Of a DNA stretch of 64,000 bases, positions 3,695 to 13,095 are shown piece after piece. How positions within the stretch are numbered: position 1 is the stretch's first letter; the number at the start of each line of letters is the position of its first letter. The position numbers and the translations under genes are program-made. The DNA lies in the NCBI RefSeq assembly GCF_000012985.1, contig NC_007645.1, positions 2,882,501 through 2,946,500 on the forward strand. Reading direction: 5' to 3'. This DNA comes from Hahella chejuensis KCTC 2396. GTDB taxonomy: Bacteria > Pseudomonadota > Gammaproteobacteria > Pseudomonadales > Oleiphilaceae. The notes under the pieces were generated by a model. It searched no databases. It had not been told where the DNA came from and worked only from the letters and a program-made list of their open reading frames with translations.

Positions 3695-5215
3695 TCAGTT
3701 TTCAGCCAGGGTTCGAAATTGTTGCTGAGGCAGGGGCGTTTTCAGCGCGTCCTGGCCTGCAAATGAGCGTTTCTGCCGATAGTGCAATCCGGCGGCTCGC
3801 CAACGTCGCAGGAATTCGTCAATGATGTCGGGATGACTTCCCAGGTGAAGTCGCACATAAGGAGCCGGGGCCTGTTGATTGAATAGCGACGCGCATAACA
3901 TCGTGCCGGTGGCGTAGAACAGGTCGTCGCGGAAACGATCAATGCCGTCGGCTTCCTTTTGGTAGACCTCCGGCACGGCGAATATCATGTAAGAGGTGGA
4001 CGGACCGATGCAGACCTCATCTTGCGGCCAGCCCAAATGCGTCGTCAGATACTGTTTTACGCGCTCTTTCTGTCGTGCGTACTGCAGCCCGGTCTCTACG
4101 GTCCAATCGGCGGCGTCTTGCGTCGCCAACCAGGCGCACATGACTTCCGCGTTGTGGGTGTTGCAGTGATAGCGATTGATCCAGGATTCGCGGGCCAACT
4201 GACGCAGTAGCAGAGGAGAGGTGGTGATCGCCGCCACGCCCATGGTGTTGCAGCTGAATTGCTTGCCGAAGGGGCGGGTGGCGACCCAGCGTTCGAACAT
4301 GCCGGAGCGGACCAGTGCATTTTCTCCTCCCTTGAAATCAAAAGCTTTCAGTAGCGACTTCAAGTGATTCACTACAGGCGTTCTGGGGTCGTGTACGTTG
4401 AAGTAGGCGTCGTCCAGCAGCAGGTAAGCGGATTCCTCTGCGCACACTTGCAACAGATGTTCCGTCACATCTGTCGGCCACTGCATGCCGGTAGGGTTGT
4501 GTTGCGGGTTGCTCACGATGAGCGAGATGCGTCGGCTTTGCCGTCCGCGCAGGTCGCTGATAATGTCTTTCCACTCTGACAGATCAGGCAGCCAACCATG
4601 TTGTGGCCGGATGGGCAGATAAACCACCTCAAAACCCACGTCTTTGAAAATCCCCCTGTAGTCCCAGCTGGGAGTGGGGACCAGCGCTACTGGCGTCGCT
4701 TCGGGCCAGCGGGATTTGAATTGCCGATGCGCGACTTTCGCCAGATCGTACATGGCCATGCGTGTCGTCATCGCCAGACAGCCTACATCGATACGTCCCG
4801 CAAAGCCGTGTTGCAGCGAATGCAGATCATGCTCCGCGACAATCAGGCGATGCAGAAAGTCGCGGTGCCGTTGAATGCCGTAACCGCACTCTGCATAGCC
4901 CATATCCTCCGGCCTGAAGGTGAATTGATTAATAAAATCCAGGAAGGCCGGGCAGACCCCGTTCCAATGCTCTCCCTTCACGGCGTACAGCGGCGGGCCG
5001 TGAGGCTCTCCGGCGTCAAGATACCGGTGATACAGCTGTTGCTCAGGAGAGCATTGCCGTAATTGCACGGAATCATTGCGCAGGTGATCCGCCGCAGCGC
5101 GAATGTGCCGGCGCATAAACGGCGTGTGTAAGGGGGGAGCGGGAATTTCGGAATGGTCGGAAGTAGAATGATCGGACGTGAAAGGGGTGTCTTGCCGCTC
5201 AAATGTGCGTGACAT
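3695..5215 (-). CDS. Large class I/II fold PLP-dependent aminotransferase-like enzyme
   Basis: 506 residues, longer than the usual 400 because of an N-terminal extension of about 100 residues. Fold-type I landmarks are present: SNPQHNPTG (the NPxNPTG loop), LLLDDAYFNV (Asp and Tyr that contact the cofactor), a Lys in RPFGKQFSCNTMG where the Schiff-base lysine is expected, and a late Arg in YVRLHLGSHPD where the substrate carboxylate is bound. The Lys context departs from ordinary aspartate-type transaminases, so the reaction could be transamination or another PLP chemistry on an amino acid. GGAGG lies 6 nt before the ATG. It is divergent from the threonyl-tRNA synthetase paralogue, which hints at an amino-acid-related or analogue-related pathway. 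Substrate unknown. Confidence 0.75.
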   Translation of the reverse strand: MSRTFERQDTPFTSDHSTSDHSEIPAPPLHTPFMRRHIRAAADHLRNDSVQLRQCSPEQQLYHRYLDAGEPHGPPLYAVKGEHWNGVCPAFLDFINQFTFRPEDMGYAECGYGIQRHRDFLHRLIVAEHDLHSLQHGFAGRIDVGCLAMTTRMAMYDLAKVAHRQFKSRWPEATPVALVPTPSWDYRGIFKDVGFEVVYLPIRPQHGWLPDLSEWKDIISDLRGRQSRRISLIVSNPQHNPTGMQWPTDVTEHLLQVCAEESAYLLLDDAYFNVHDPRTPVVNHLKSLLKAFDFKGGENALVRSGMFERWVATRPFGKQFSCNTMGVAAITTSPLLLRQLARESWINRYHCNTHNAEVMCAWLATQDAADWTVETGLQYARQKERVKQYLTTHLGWPQDEVCIGPSTSYMIFAVPEVYQKEADGIDRFRDDLFYATGTMLCASLFNQQAPAPYVRLHLGSHPDIIDEFLRRWRAAGLHYRQKRSFAGQDALKTPLPQQQFRTLAEN

Positions 5216-5342
5216 ATCGAACCTCCATTTCTAACAACTGCATAGTAAAGTTTAGTTTTTCGCCGCAGGGCGTCCATTGGGCGGTCAAATTATTCCTCAT
5301 TGGAATTGCCGCTGCATTGATTTCAGTGTTATGTTTTCCCCC

Positions 5343-5402
5343 ATGAACCACATCAATCTTTTTTCGACCACCCGCACCACCACCAACTGGCTTGGAGGGT
5401 AG
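5343..5402 (+). CDS. Threonine-rich leader peptide of an attenuator
   Basis: A 19-codon ORF encodes MNHINLFSTTRTTTNWLGG. Five of the six residues 9-14 are threonine, all ACC codons, the pattern of amino-acid-sensing leader peptides such as E. coli ThrL. It ends 20 nt before the first arm of a rho-independent terminator and its last codons contain the antiterminator arm. The gene downstream is a threonyl-tRNA synthetase paralogue, so sensing of charged tRNA-Thr is the natural reading. Weak point: no clear Shine-Dalgarno sequence precedes the ATG. Confidence 0.7.
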   Translation: MNHINLFSTTRTTTNWLGG

Positions 5403-5454
5403 TGCGCGTCTAAAGAAAAAGGACCCTCCGAGCGAGAGCCGGAGGGTTTTTTTT
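5394..5454 (+). promoter_or_regulatory. Transcription attenuator (antiterminator/terminator switch)
   Basis: The terminator is ACCCTCCG (5423-5430), a 9-nt loop, CGGAGGGT (5440-5447) and a run of eight T (5447-5454). The segment GGAGGGT at 5394-5400, inside the end of the leader peptide, is perfectly complementary to ACCCTCC at 5423-5429, so it can form a mutually exclusive antiterminator. A ribosome stalled on the first Thr codons leaves 5394-5400 free (read-through), while one that reaches the stop codon covers it (termination). This is the classical amino-acid attenuation arrangement, inferred from sequence complementarity only. Confidence 0.75.
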
Positions 5455-5518
5455 CGCCTTCTTGTTTTCGTTTCGGGGCCTGAATCTGTACTGAAAACGA
5501 AGCCGTAGGAGGCGACAC

Positions 5519-6766
5519 ATGAAAAACCATCGCGATATCGCAGAAGAACTCGACTTATTTCATTCAGAAGCGCAGGGGCCAGGCATGGCGTTCTGGCATC
5601 CCCGGGGCTGGCGCATGTTCCGTACTGTAAAAAACCATATTCGCGCCGCTTATGAAGCCGAAAGCTTTCAGGAAGTGGCCACGCCGCAGTTTCTGAAAAG
5701 GGAGTTGTGGGAAACTTCCGGGCATTGGGAAAAATACGCCGATGACATGTTCGTCGGCGCCGGGTTTGGCGAAGAGCCGGAGTACGCGCTAAAGCCCATG
5801 TCCTGTCCGGCGCATATTCTGCTCTATAAACGGGGCGTGCGCAGTTACAAGTCTCTGCCATTGCGTTTGTTCGAATTTGGCTTGGTGCACCGTAATGAAC
5901 GCTCCGGCGCGTTGAACGGTTTGATGCGTCTGCGTCAATTCACTCAGGATGACGCTCACGTTTTCTGTCGCTGGGATCAAGTAAGTCAGGAAATTCAGGC
6001 GTTCTTGCGCAGAGCGGAGCGCGTGTATGCGGATTACGGATATGGACGCCCTCAAGTGTTCATATCCACGCGTCCGCAGCGGGACTATTTCGGCGCGCCT
6101 GAAGACTGGGAGCGGGCGGAACTCATGCTGGCGGAAGCGTGCGCGGCGGCCAGCGCGGAGTTTGTCCGGCAGGAAGGCGAGGGCGCATTCTACGGTCCCA
6201 AAATTGAGCTGGCGCTGAAAGACGGGCAGGGGCGTCAATGGCAGATGGGCACTATCCAGCTGGACTTCAATATGCCGGAGCGCTTTGATCTGCATTATAT
6301 CGACGCAGCAGGCGAGCGGCGCAGGCCGGTGATTCTGCATCAGGCGGTGTATGGCTCCATTGAGCGCTGGATCGGTGTGCTGCTGGAGACTTATCAGGCG
6401 GCCCTGCCGGCCTGGGTGCATCCGCAGCCGGTGGTATTAGCCTCAGTGGGGCAAGACGCTGTCGCCTATTGCGAAAGCGTTGGCGAATTATTAAGGCGTC
6501 ACGGCGTTCCAGTGGAGATGGATCTGGCCAATGACTCTCTGGCGAAAAAAATGAAAGTGCTGAGACGTTATAAAACGCCTCTGGTGCTGATCGCCGGCGC
6601 ACAGGAAATGGCGAACGACTCCATTGTGGTGCGTCGACGTGGCGGTGAGCAGGCGCTGGCGTCTCGGGATGAGCTCGTTGCAATAGTGAGGGAGGCGCTG
6701 TCAGTCGCTGACTGTGGGGATGTTTCTGTAAGCGAGTCCACTATAGAGGCTGCGTATGCAGAGTAG
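5519..6766 (+). CDS. Threonyl-tRNA synthetase paralogue lacking TGS and editing domains
   Basis: 415 residues against about 640 for ordinary ThrRS. The catalytic core starts almost at once (FWHPRGWRMFRTV) and keeps motif 2 (HRNERSGALNGLMRLRQFTQ) and motif 3 (GSIERW, 279-284). The three zinc ligands that recognise threonine are in place: Cys96 in MSCPAH, His147 in DDAHVF, His274 in ILHQAV. Residues from about 305 form the anticodon-binding domain. The N1/N2 editing half is absent, so it cannot clear Ser-tRNA-Thr itself. GTAGGAGG precedes the ATG and the Thr attenuator lies upstream. A housekeeping thrS probably exists elsewhere (inference); this copy could serve starvation or resistance to a ThrRS inhibitor. 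Confidence 0.9.
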   Translation: MKNHRDIAEELDLFHSEAQGPGMAFWHPRGWRMFRTVKNHIRAAYEAESFQEVATPQFLKRELWETSGHWEKYADDMFVGAGFGEEPEYALKPMSCPAHILLYKRGVRSYKSLPLRLFEFGLVHRNERSGALNGLMRLRQFTQDDAHVFCRWDQVSQEIQAFLRRAERVYADYGYGRPQVFISTRPQRDYFGAPEDWERAELMLAEACAAASAEFVRQEGEGAFYGPKIELALKDGQGRQWQMGTIQLDFNMPERFDLHYIDAAGERRRPVILHQAVYGSIERWIGVLLETYQAALPAWVHPQPVVLASVGQDAVAYCESVGELLRRHGVPVEMDLANDSLAKKMKVLRRYKTPLVLIAGAQEMANDSIVVRRRGGEQALASRDELVAIVREALSVADCGDVSVSESTIEAAYAE

Positions 6767-6827
6767 TGAGAGAATGAGACGGCTCACGCCGTCCCATTAC
6801 TTTGAGGTATAGCGTCTGGACTCTGGA

Positions 6828-8546
6828 CTACTGTGGGACGCCGAATACGCGGAACTCCAGCAAACTGGTCCAGTCGCCCTCATAGACATTGGCGTCGTTG
6901 ACGCGGATGCGCACATAGCGCCCCTCTGCATCGACTTCATCGCGGTTGGGCGCGTCGATGCTTCCCGGCGTGACGTTATCGTTGCGGTCCACGATTTGCG
7001 TCCAGGGCCCCGCCGCGGCGTTGCTGACTTCCACGACATAGTGGTAAGCGCGATCTTTGTAGGCGACCAGTTCTAACGCGTCGATTCGCGCGTCAGAACC
7101 CAGGTCCACGGTCAGCGTCTGTGGAAAATACTTCGCTGACCAACGTGTTTCCACATCGCCGTCTACGGCGCGGCTGCAGCCGTTGCCGTCTTCCTGATCG
7201 GTGCAGGAAACCGGCTTGCCCTGGGCGAGGTTAATCGCGGTTGTCGCGCCGCCGTCGGTAGGCGGTTCGCCCCCGGCGGGCGCGCCGAATTCAATTTTAT
7301 CCAGATCCGGCGCCCAGGCGCTGGCGTTATAGAAGCGTATGACATTGTCCCCCGCGTTGAGGAACAGGCTGTCCTCGTAGGTCTTGATCTTACTCCAGCC
7401 GCCGGAATTCAGGGCGGCGGAATCCTCTCCTGCATGATTGACGCTCCAATATAAAGTCCGGGTATCGCCGGAGGTGAAGTGCAGCGTCATAGGATAGTAA
7501 TCGGCGCTTTTGGCGTTGATATTGAACTCCGCCCAGTTGTCGCCGTTACCGATGTAGCCCAGGCCTTTACCGCCGGACATAAAGGATTTCGACAGGACTT
7601 TGGTCTGGCCATGCAGCCCGGCGGTCTCCGCTTCTATGGCGGTGACGTCGGGCTCGCCGTCGCCAGGTCCATCCCCTGGGCATTGGTCGTCGCCCTCGGC
7701 GATGCAGAAGTCGTTAAACAGCACCTTCTCGTCACGCAGGGAGGACTTGTTGGTGAGGCTGCGATAAATGCCCCACTTGGGGCGGACGAAAGGTTTGTCG
7801 TTGAGCCACATATCGATGTCATTGGAACTCCAGGACATCAGCTCAAGACCATCGCGCAGGCGCGTGATGCGGATATTGTATGTTCCATGATCGTCGAAGC
7901 GGGAGGTTTCGATGACCTCCACCCATTCGCCCATAAAAGGCTCCAGGTCCACGGTTTTAACCTTGCCAAGACTGACGCTGTCCGAGTTATGTATGAGCTC
8001 CATTTTATTGGGGCTGCCGGCGCGGGGCGTGAGCGTCATCAACGGCATGCCGCCGCCGTCCCCTTTGATCTGGTGAACGTGAGTGAAACTTTTAGACGGC
8101 TGAAAGCCTGAGTCCAGCTTGAAATTCCATCTGTAAGTATGTGTTTCTCCTAGAGTTCCTTTGAGATTGTCAGGCGAAGAGGAAGCGGTTTTCACCTCTG
8201 TGCGCTGACGGTCGCTGTTGATGCAGCGATCGTCGTCTTCGTCGACATGAGCCAGAAAGGCGAAGACGTGGGTGTTCAGCTCGGCATTCCACTCCTCTGC
8301 GATATGCCTGCCGGCATGGCCGCAGTCCGGGGTTTCAGGATCGGCGCCGAGTTGTTCGGAGAAGAGTTCATAAGTATCGCCGGGACCGTTCGCGGATACC
8401 GTGACGGAGGCCTCGGCGATGGATACGGCGCTGGCCAGAGCCGTCAAGGCGAAGGACGCCGCCAGGGCGGAGGCGGATGAGCGCCACGGTTTGCGAACGA
8501 CGGCGCAGGGCGGCGTCGGGATAGGGGGGACGGTGGAGGTGTTCAT
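6828..8546 (-). CDS. Secreted modular polysaccharide lyase-like protein with CBM6/35-like and F5/8C-like domains
   Basis: 572 residues. A long N-terminal region carries a hydrophobic stretch (ASALAASFALTALASAV) that looks like a signal peptide. Residues about 55-290 resemble beta-jelly-roll polysaccharide lyases, with QRTEVK, THVHQIKGDGG and RPKWGIYRS as the recognisable strands. After a linker rich in Asp, Gly and Pro comes a carbohydrate-binding module of CBM6/35 type (about 300-425, AEFNINAKSADYYPMTLHF), then a second linker and a discoidin-type F5/8C domain (about 435-570, NLAQGKPVSC and ending LLEFRVFGV). It should be exported and act on an acidic polysaccharide; the substrate cannot be told. 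Single transcription unit. Confidence 0.75.
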   Translation of the reverse strand: MNTSTVPPIPTPPCAVVRKPWRSSASALAASFALTALASAVSIAEASVTVSANGPGDTYELFSEQLGADPETPDCGHAGRHIAEEWNAELNTHVFAFLAHVDEDDDRCINSDRQRTEVKTASSSPDNLKGTLGETHTYRWNFKLDSGFQPSKSFTHVHQIKGDGGGMPLMTLTPRAGSPNKMELIHNSDSVSLGKVKTVDLEPFMGEWVEVIETSRFDDHGTYNIRITRLRDGLELMSWSSNDIDMWLNDKPFVRPKWGIYRSLTNKSSLRDEKVLFNDFCIAEGDDQCPGDGPGDGEPDVTAIEAETAGLHGQTKVLSKSFMSGGKGLGYIGNGDNWAEFNINAKSADYYPMTLHFTSGDTRTLYWSVNHAGEDSAALNSGGWSKIKTYEDSLFLNAGDNVIRFYNASAWAPDLDKIEFGAPAGGEPPTDGGATTAINLAQGKPVSCTDQEDGNGCSRAVDGDVETRWSAKYFPQTLTVDLGSDARIDALELVAYKDRAYHYVVEVSNAAAGPWTQIVDRNDNVTPGSIDAPNRDEVDAEGRYVRIRVNDANVYEGDWTSLLEFRVFGVPQ

Positions 8547-11822: not shown

Positions 11823-13040
11823 CTACGCCGATTCCCTTTCATCTTGAAACGAACGCCAGATCGGGAGCGGGTCAGGGTAGTTCACCCAGACTTTTTCCCC
11901 TTGCGCCAGTTCCTCATCCGTCAGCAGACAAGCATCGAGTTCGCTGCGCAGTCGGTCCCAGTCGATTCCCTGACCGATAAACACCAGTTCCTGGCGGCGA
12001 TCGCCATAAGGCTCCAGCCAGTTGTTGCGAATCAGGCGCAGAGACTCTTCATCCTGTGGCCAGTACTCTTGCGGCGCGCCCGCCCAAAACAGACCTGCAT
12101 AGCTGTAGCGCATCACGCCGCCGGCTTGAGACCAGCCGCCTGCTTCATAAGGGCGACTGGCGAGCCAGAAGTATCCTTTGGAACGCAACAGGCGGCCATT
12201 ATTCCACTCCCGCTCCAAAAACTGATGGAAGCGCTGGGGATGGAAAGGACGGCGCGCCCGATAACTGATGCTGCCGATACCGTACTCTTCGGTTTCCGGC
12301 GTATGCTCGCCGCGCAGTTCCTGCAGCCAGCCCGGCGCGCGGGCGGCTCTTTCGAAATCGAATCTGCCAGTGTTTAAAACTTTAGACAGCGGCGTCTGTC
12401 CCATCAAGGCGGGAACGATATCCGCTTCGGGATTGAGCTTGCGCAGTACGGAAAACAGCTCTTCCCGCTCCGCCTGACTGATCAGGTCAAGCTTGCTTAC
12501 TACCAGCACGTCGCTGAACTCGATCTGGTCCACCAGCAGTTCGGCGACATTGCGTTCGTCCTCGGCGCCCAGGGACTCGCCGACTTCCTGCAATGTCTCG
12601 GCGTTTTCATAGTCACGCATGAAATTGACGCCATCCACTACCGTAACCAGAGTGTCCAGACGGGCGATGTCCGCCAGGCTCACGCCATGCTCATCCCGAA
12701 ACGTAAATGTCTCGGCCACCGGCAGAGGTTCAGATACGCCTGTGGATTCGATGACCAGGTAATCGAAACGGTTTTCCCTGGCCAGGCGGGAAACCTCCTG
12801 CAACAAATCTTCACGCAGAGTGCAGCAGATACAGCCATTGCTCATTTCCACCAGTTTCTCCTCCGCGCGATTCAGATTCACTTCGCGATTGACCTGGCTG
12901 GCGTCAATGTTGATTTCACTCATGTCGTTAACGATGACCGCGACTTTGAGGCCGTCCCGGTTTTGCAGAATATGGTTGAGCAGGGTGGTTTTTCCTGCGC
13001 CGAGAAATCCCGACAGCACGGTCACAGGCAATTTACGCAT
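11823..13040 (-). CDS. COG0523 (CobW/ZigA-type) GTPase, probable zinc metallochaperone
   Basis: 405 residues. The N-terminal G domain has the P-loop GFLGAGKTT (residues 11-19) and the metal motif CxCC as GCICC (Cys70, 72, 73), the family hallmark; SKLD is the guanine-binding motif. The CobW C-terminal domain covers about 240-395. Family members deliver zinc or cobalt to client enzymes using GTP. A near-canonical Zur palindrome sits about 40 nt upstream of the start, which points to induction by zinc starvation and thus the zinc-allocation subgroup. Transcribed alone. Confidence 0.9.
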
Positions 13041-13080: not shown

Positions 13081-13095
13081 TGTTATAACATAACA
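13081..13095. promoter_or_regulatory. Putative Zur box
   Basis: TGTTATAACATAACA is a perfect inverted repeat (TGTTAT-AAC-ATAACA) close to the gammaproteobacterial Zur consensus TGTTATAATATAACA. It lies between the COG0523 gene and the divergent binding-protein gene. Zur control is inferred from the match. Confidence 0.7.

Follow-up and report, generated by a model that had tools for sequence, protein, structure and literature searches.

A probable threonine-codon attenuator precedes an editing-less threonyl-tRNA synthetase paralogue in Hahella chejuensis

A short leader open reading frame with a run of threonine codons and an intrinsic terminator stand ahead of the gene for a second, editing-less threonyl-tRNA synthetase (ThrRS) in the 64 kb stretch of Hahella chejuensis KCTC 2396 DNA that we analysed as a whole (the window). 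We consider ribosome-mediated attenuation of this backup enzyme, induced by low Thr-tRNA charging, to be the best explanation of the arrangement, with a probability of about 0.87. The anatomy of the element, its mutually exclusive computed folds, its conservation in four Hahella genomes and in a diverged Photobacterium copy, and its recurrence elsewhere bear on this reading directly, and they support the Thr-codon attenuator that a first-pass annotation had proposed from the sequence.

Anatomy of the leader, terminator and antiterminator

The leader peptide, MNHINLFSTTRTTTNWLGG followed by a stop codon, is encoded in 19 codons at 5343-5402 on the forward strand, and its putative threonine sensor consists of five ACC codons within six positions (5367-5384, forward strand; codons 9, 10, 12, 13 and 14), just as the first-pass annotation had described. 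Translation could also begin at an in-frame ATG at 5331. When the forward strand of 5216-5518 was shuffled with dinucleotide composition kept, a short open reading frame with five threonines in six codons appeared in 1 of 20,000 shuffles, and no second frame of this kind was found among the short open reading frames (8 to 50 codons) of the window.

The strong terminator claimed to follow the leader is present at 5423-5454 (forward strand): its 5' arm (5423-5433) is common to the antiterminator, its 3' arm runs to 5447 and its U tract to 5454, and the fold of 5330-5470 has a z score of -3.29. A 7-nt arm perfectly complementary to the terminator had also been claimed; the complementarity stands, but its extent was understated, as the antiterminator helix joins GCUUGGAGGGU (5390-5400, forward strand) to ACCCUCCGAGC (5423-5433) by 11 consecutive pairs, one of them G-U. 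The 5' strand of this helix shares bases with the final leader codons and with the stop codon. Folding further predicts a pause-type hairpin (1:2) at 5373-5407 on the forward strand, which would sequester the antiterminator strand when the ribosome is absent.

Computed response to ribosome position

We masked the ribosome-covered bases, folded the transcript as far as the 3' arm of the terminator and took P(antiterminator) as the probability that the terminator 5' arm pairs upstream. This value was 1.00 with the ribosome at codon 9 or 12, 0.63 at codon 14 and 0.00 at the stop codon; for ribosome-free RNA it was 0.13 or 0.10, by start base of the folded piece, because the 1:2 hairpin forms. The E. 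coli thrL control gave 1.00, 1.00 and 0.67 at the equivalent positions, 0.05 at the stop codon and 0.72 without a ribosome. The element in the window is built like thrL, and in the computation its antiterminator and terminator are mutually exclusive, the former being freed by a stalled ribosome and masked by a terminating one.

In the mechanism that we propose, a ribosome supplied with plentiful Thr-tRNA would reach the leader stop codon and cover 5390-5400, so that the terminator would form and the ThrRS gene would be off. When Thr-tRNA is short, the ribosome would stall on the ACC run, and 5390-5400 would pair with 5423-5433 while the 3' arm of the terminator is still to be transcribed; with the antiterminator formed, RNA polymerase would read through into the gene for the editing-less ThrRS, and the paralogue would restore charging, closing a negative feedback loop. 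We infer the transcription start, the translation of the leader, the induction and the activity of the enzyme in this scheme, and the natural trigger may be any failure of the housekeeping ThrRS, whether through lack of threonine, lack of zinc or an inhibitor.

Conservation in Hahella and Photobacterium

The leader is kept in loci L033, L074 and L076 and diverged in L069, and its threonine codons and spacing are identical in four Hahella genomes (G000, G745, G750 and G755). The paralogue was without a match at E 1e-121 in three of the seven Hahella genomes (G732, G760 and G764), so the enzyme is dispensable. In Photobacterium sp. GJ3 (L069), where the locus was found through the ThrRS start and not through the leader, a leader MMKMKLMPQLAMPVSQTTTTETSRLFGG stands in the same architecture ahead of a broken ThrRS gene; the threonine run and the final Gly-Gly are retained, and the remaining peptide is divergent. 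A terminator kept without its leader, the pattern that the first-pass annotation had set against its own reading, is therefore not what these genomes contain. The Photobacterium ThrRS gene itself (8007-8789 of L069) is broken by frame changes, a stop codon and the loss of its middle, its attenuator looks intact, and genes with RES and Xre/MbcA-like domains lie downstream.

The stop-to-arm spacing is 20 nt in all five sequences (four Hahella and Photobacterium GJ3). Across these sequences the antiterminator was paired in 55 of 55 cells, with one-sided changes at five pairs, and slid versions paired at 27-58%; the terminator was paired in 40 of 40 cells and held one compensatory change, from C-G to U-A. 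On their own, the shuffle controls did not demonstrate covariation in the five sequences (antiterminator, 500 of 500; terminator, 102 of 500).

Further copies were sought in 293 genomes of the order (E 1e-100), 369 of the class and 398 of the phylum (both E 1e-121), with an additional class search of 293 genomes using alignment A2. The order, class and phylum searches yielded no other intact short ThrRS outside Hahella among the matches listed, the E 1e-121 limit being one that would miss Burkholderia-type copies. Shorter frames near contig starts appeared in the class search with A2 (481 aa in G390 and 434 aa in G556).

The paralogue is an editing-less ThrRS

The paralogue gene occupies 5519-6766 on the forward strand behind a Shine-Dalgarno sequence, AGGAGG, that can be read directly at 5507-5512 (forward strand), and its 415 residues comprise the core and anticodon-binding domains only. 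Its match to TIGR00418 (428.8 bits, above the curated cut-off of 383.65) begins at model position 171 of 565. Because of this late start, the mere 8 residues of open frame ahead of the start, and the missing D.CRGPH editing motif, which the genome's own 639-aa ThrS retains, the enzyme is editing-less, and the corresponding claim of the first-pass annotation was borne out. The catalytic-site stretches MSCP, DDAH and GAFYG and the His of VILHQ are retained, as are the residues at three positions that we take to be zinc ligands, and the best solved-structure relatives are ThrRSs.

The genome, a single contig of 7,215,267 bases, holds one full-length ThrS (open frame of 639 aa). The paralogue is 43% identical to this housekeeping enzyme over the common part, which together with a separate tree position rules out a recent duplication; its closest relative in the named genome collection is that of Hahella sp. 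HN01 (91%). The housekeeping enzyme could clear any Ser-tRNA-Thr that the paralogue makes, by analogy with Anabaena, in which T1 clears T2 mischarging by trans-editing (PMC4787780).

Recurrence on plasmids and in other bacteria

Twenty plasmid records were read among the matches listed (at least 103 at E 1e-60). Five of the 20 encode a short ThrRS, and all five of these carry a threonine leader: MNARFVTTTTTTTTTANGGLGGGCTS in Burkholderia arboris, MNSHFFTLTTATTTTTFSGGSSGGRAR in two Caballeronia strains, and two tandem leader-terminator units on each of pREC1 and pREC2 from Acaryochloris marina (L087, 2636-2959; L111, 2633-2959), with ...TSTTTTTTHTGGL and MNTTTTTTTTITPGGT as the pREC2 leaders. 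The short ThrRSs of these three genera are only distantly related to that of Hahella.

A run of at least five threonines in six codons was found at 10 of 10 cellular short-ThrRS loci (9 distinct) from five genera, which are not independent (four are from Hahella, two from Acaryochloris and two from Caballeronia, identical over 1,600 bases), as against 1 of 168 full-length loci (0 of 159, then 1 of 9 more), many of which are also near relatives of each other. The search upstream of short ThrRS paralogues that the first-pass annotation had suggested thus favours its reading. Among the 159 full-length loci, three had four threonines in six codons and three ORFs lay at the locus edge; the nine added loci include L216, which is interrupted. 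L058 and L068 (broken or cut by a contig end) and L108 were dropped before the count, L108 in G178 being a frameshifted full-length copy and not a short ThrRS. The sole full-length exception lies on a plasmid of Qipengyuania citrea (L209), where the leader MTPMRITTTTTTTPGNRGWSVAA has its stop codon at 1108 and the annotated ThrRS start is at 1248; a rule that the leader goes only with an editing-less ThrRS is ruled out by this locus.

Stalled and stop-codon values of P(antiterminator) were 1.00/0.00 for the four Hahella elements, 0.99/0.12 for Photobacterium, 0.87/0.01 for Burkholderia and 0.84/0.18 for Caballeronia; in Acaryochloris the first unit discriminated weakly (0.59/0.48 and 0.59/0.41) and the second gave 0.87/0.01. 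Of 200 segment shuffles, none was equally good for Photobacterium or for any of the four Hahella elements, compared with 9 for Burkholderia and 25 for Caballeronia, where the T tract of the terminator is poor; in Acaryochloris the counts were 70 and 76 for the first unit and 1 for the second. We judge the evidence for an attenuator to be strong in Hahella and Photobacterium; in most of the other elements it is fair, and the first Acaryochloris unit is unproven. Ribosome-free values were 0.99 for Photobacterium, 0.83 for Caballeronia, 0.87 for the second Acaryochloris unit and 0.52 for Hahella G755, and elements with a ribosome-free antiterminator therefore depend on leader translation to be off.

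Copies in viral records

An IMG/VR scan with the short-ThrRS alignment returned 63 loci, 18 of which encode a short ThrRS (L187 and L188 share sequence): two with an attenuator, two without a clear attenuator and 14 with none. On a 437 kb contig (L198), the leader MHIVKNTTTTTTTQIEAGLVRYCR belongs to an attenuator at 1319-1436 with stalled/stop values of 0.75/0.07 and a ribosome-free value of 0.74. On a 288 kb contig (L173), which matches the 636 kb phage record LR756504 (L215) without a difference over 1,600 bases, the leader MNNNINRTRTTLGLSDKVLSFMKR and a terminator span 1291-1413; its three threonines in four codons fall below the 5-of-6 test, its values were 0.71/0.03 and, without a ribosome, 0.82, and tRNA-Thr genes flank the ThrRS gene on both sides. 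For each of these two elements, 10 of 200 segment shuffles were equally good. L149 and L153, the two without a clear attenuator, have a longer ORF just upstream of the ThrRS gene with a Thr-rich tail (ITTETSTTTAKD and ITTETTTTTASA), and at the other 14 loci, with upstream DNA inspected for five of them, the threonine run did not exceed 3 of 6. At one locus with no leader peptide, L203, three tRNA-Thr genes (1142-1451) lie directly 5' of the viral short ThrRS gene.

In a quick tree with long branches, the Hahella and Acaryochloris enzymes cluster (95) together with the long branch of L198, whose join with Hahella is unsure; the Burkholderia/Caballeronia pair falls among viral short ThrRSs (93), and the Hahella housekeeping ThrS lies elsewhere. 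Editing has probably been lost, or a short ThrRS captured, more than once, a reading that is tentative because of the long branches. In alignment A2, the residue after the His of VILHQ is Arg in the Hahella housekeeping ThrS (HRA), Gln in the short enzymes of Hahella and Acaryochloris, and His in those of Burkholderia and Caballeronia.

Promoter matches and leader translation

The candidate promoter in the window (5306-5335, forward strand) consists of TTGCCG (5306-5311), 18 nt and TATGTT (5330-5335), with 8 of 12 matches, and ends 7 nt before the leader ATG. The match is weak (93 of 300 shuffles were equally good), and a stricter scan of 5100-5600 found no promoter pattern. In all four Hahella genomes the best sigma-70-like sequence stops 7 nt short of the leader ATG and is no better than chance (equalled by 93 to 258 of 300 shuffles); TTGACA-17-TAGATT ends 6 nt before the ATG in Burkholderia (1 of 300), and the Caballeronia match ends 7 nt before it (16 of 300). 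A Shine-Dalgarno sequence before the leader was found in none of the four Hahella, the Burkholderia or the Caballeronia sequences. Promoter matches that end 6-7 nt before the ATG, combined with no Shine-Dalgarno sequence, suggest that translation of the leader may be leaderless in these three genera. Photobacterium is an exception, its best promoter match ending 22 nt before the ATG (205 of 300 shuffles equal, not significant), and in L198 a Shine-Dalgarno-like site is present and the promoter match ends 19 nt upstream. Leaderless transcript starts are described for Streptomyces leader peptides, thrL included (PMC8079986).

Alternative explanations

If the pairing were due to chance, the hairpin would end another transcript and the ThrRS gene would have its own downstream promoter; the weak upstream promoter and the absence of a promoter pattern in 5100-5600 would fit this. 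However, the upstream gene is divergent, the arrangement recurs in five genera with a short ThrRS, in Qipengyuania and in phage-type records, and an 11-bp antiterminator accompanies a threonine run that is a 1 in 20,000 event, which makes a chance pairing very improbable. It is also possible, although we think it rather unlikely, that the paralogue is a zinc-stress ThrRS from a zinc-limitation set, with the attenuator responding to zinc only by way of a failing zinc-dependent housekeeping ThrRS; as to the trigger, this is a special case of the attenuation that we favour. The gene for the zinc chaperone ZigA (11823-13040, reverse strand; NF038288) is found some 5 kb downstream, with synteny preserved in G745, G750 and G755, a Zur-type box (13081-13095) with one mismatch to the consensus stands directly upstream of zigA, and genes for a Fur-family regulator and a metal-binding protein lie near the short ThrRS gene of pREC2, as does cysS on pREC1. 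Against Zur control of the paralogue gene itself, no Zur-type box within 3 mismatches of the consensus was found there, and the paralogue retains the presumed zinc-ligand residues. Eight of the 15 full-length plasmid thrS copies read (L088, L093, L094, L113, L207, L208, L212 and L216) adjoin hisI, folE, dksA, hemB, GTP-binding protein, DUF1826 or Fur-family genes, but none of the eight has a threonine leader or a threonine run of at least 4 of 6, and the genes around the Burkholderia and Caballeronia copies have no relation to zinc. A biosynthetic or zinc cluster common to all copies is ruled out, since the neighbours differ. The published parallel for the zinc reading is Anabaena T2, a low-zinc, editing-impaired second ThrRS (PMC4787780).

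The paralogue might instead protect its host against a ThrRS-targeting antibiotic resembling borrelidin or obafluorin, in which case the attenuator would sense the inhibitor; we regard this as improbable. The attenuated auxiliary TrpRS gene of Streptomyces, reportedly antibiotic-resistant to judge by the title of Vecchione and Sello (2010), counts for this reading. So does the auxiliary ThrRS ObaO, an immunity enzyme of such a type (PMC11252418, PMC10619133), which has Ser in place of Gly463 (PMC11252418). The paralogue, in contrast, keeps Gly at that position (GAFYGPK) and has Met at the Leu489 position; the housekeeping enzyme has the same two residues, so that the Leu489 position does not distinguish the paralogue from it. 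The ObaO-type resistance residue is thus absent from the paralogue, and the eight neighbouring genes examined include no evident biosynthetic cluster.

Relation to known systems

The Hahella element is not a member of the Rfam Thr_leader family (RF00506), scoring 23.8 bits against a cut-off of 55 that L173 (28.6) and L091 (28.0) also do not reach, with E. coli thrL at 122.1 bits; nor is it a T-box, for which Rfam gave no match in 4801-7000 with E up to 10. Like E. coli thrL-thrABC, it has a Thr-codon leader, an antiterminator over the last codons and stop codon and the same constrained-folding behaviour, with a stop-to-arm distance of 24 nt in thrL and 20 nt in Hahella. Unlike the Hahella element, thrL controls biosynthesis, and its leader also has Ile codons. 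Bacillus subtilis thrZ encodes a second ThrRS that is induced at low Thr-tRNA charging, as proposed here, but through a T-box that binds uncharged tRNA, and its enzyme is full-length. The pheST leader, in contrast to that of Hahella, has Phe codons and serves the housekeeping PheRS. Ribosome-mediated attenuation of the Streptomyces auxiliary TrpRS gene was reportedly the subject of Vecchione and Sello (2010).

Attenuators are described before trpS (trpS2) and leuS in Streptomyces and before pheST in gammaproteobacteria (PMC1262725), and His leaders before hisS paralogues in bacilli (PMC2965389). As with trpS2 and leuS, a synthetase gene in Hahella lies under a leader with its own amino-acid codons, and the auxiliary TrpRS gene is likewise a spare; unlike those actinobacterial systems for Trp or Leu, the Hahella one concerns Thr and an enzyme without an editing domain. 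With pheST it shares classical attenuation of a synthetase in gammaproteobacteria (PMC1262725). In Streptomyces lividans TK24, a Thr leader peptide before thrS has been proposed as a threonine sensor; two of its 18 residues are Thr, the single hairpin lacks a U tract and termination is called unclear, and leader peptides also precede alaS, leuS and trpS (PMC8079986). This actinobacterial thrL, like the Hahella leader, stands before a ThrRS gene but has the weaker threonine run. Anabaena T2 is similarly a second, editing-poor ThrRS induced under stress, although its editing domain is present but impaired and its promoter is Zur-controlled (PMC4787780). Attenuated synthetase genes are thus a kind already known, including a two-Thr leader before thrS. 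The first-pass annotation had called synthetase control by a Thr leader in gammaproteobacteria unfamiliar, which holds in part: attenuated synthetases are in print (PMC1262725, PMC8079986), gammaproteobacterial pheST among them. In the accessible, mostly non-subscription literature we found no Thr attenuator before an editing-less ThrRS, nor its spread, tandem or phage forms.

Spread of the element and its genomic setting

New here are a strong thrL-type attenuator before a spare editing-less ThrRS, the repetition of this pairing in hosts distant from each other, the tandem arrangement in a cyanobacterium and the copies in very large viral records. The arrangement offers a candidate answer to why an error-prone spare ThrRS persists in a cell, namely that it would be silent until charging fails. 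Attenuator and ThrRS occur together in Gammaproteobacteria, in Burkholderiales, on cyanobacterial conjugative-type plasmids, on an alphaproteobacterial plasmid and in very large phages. More tentatively, and short of even odds in our judgement, the attenuator and its mostly editing-less ThrRS may form a self-contained charge-rescue cassette that moves horizontally. Such a cassette would be workable in any host because the gene brings with it a sensor of Thr-tRNA charging, and the phage copies would restore charging depleted by the host or by infection; if these copies work, host tRNA charging would be sensed by phage.

The divergent syntenic neighbour of the Hahella element is a class I/II aminotransferase-fold gene (3695-5215, reverse strand), which is retained in two Hahella genomes that are without the ThrRS paralogue. 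Its product weakly resembles GntC-type cyclodehydratases, scoring 53.8 bits where the cut-off is 415.
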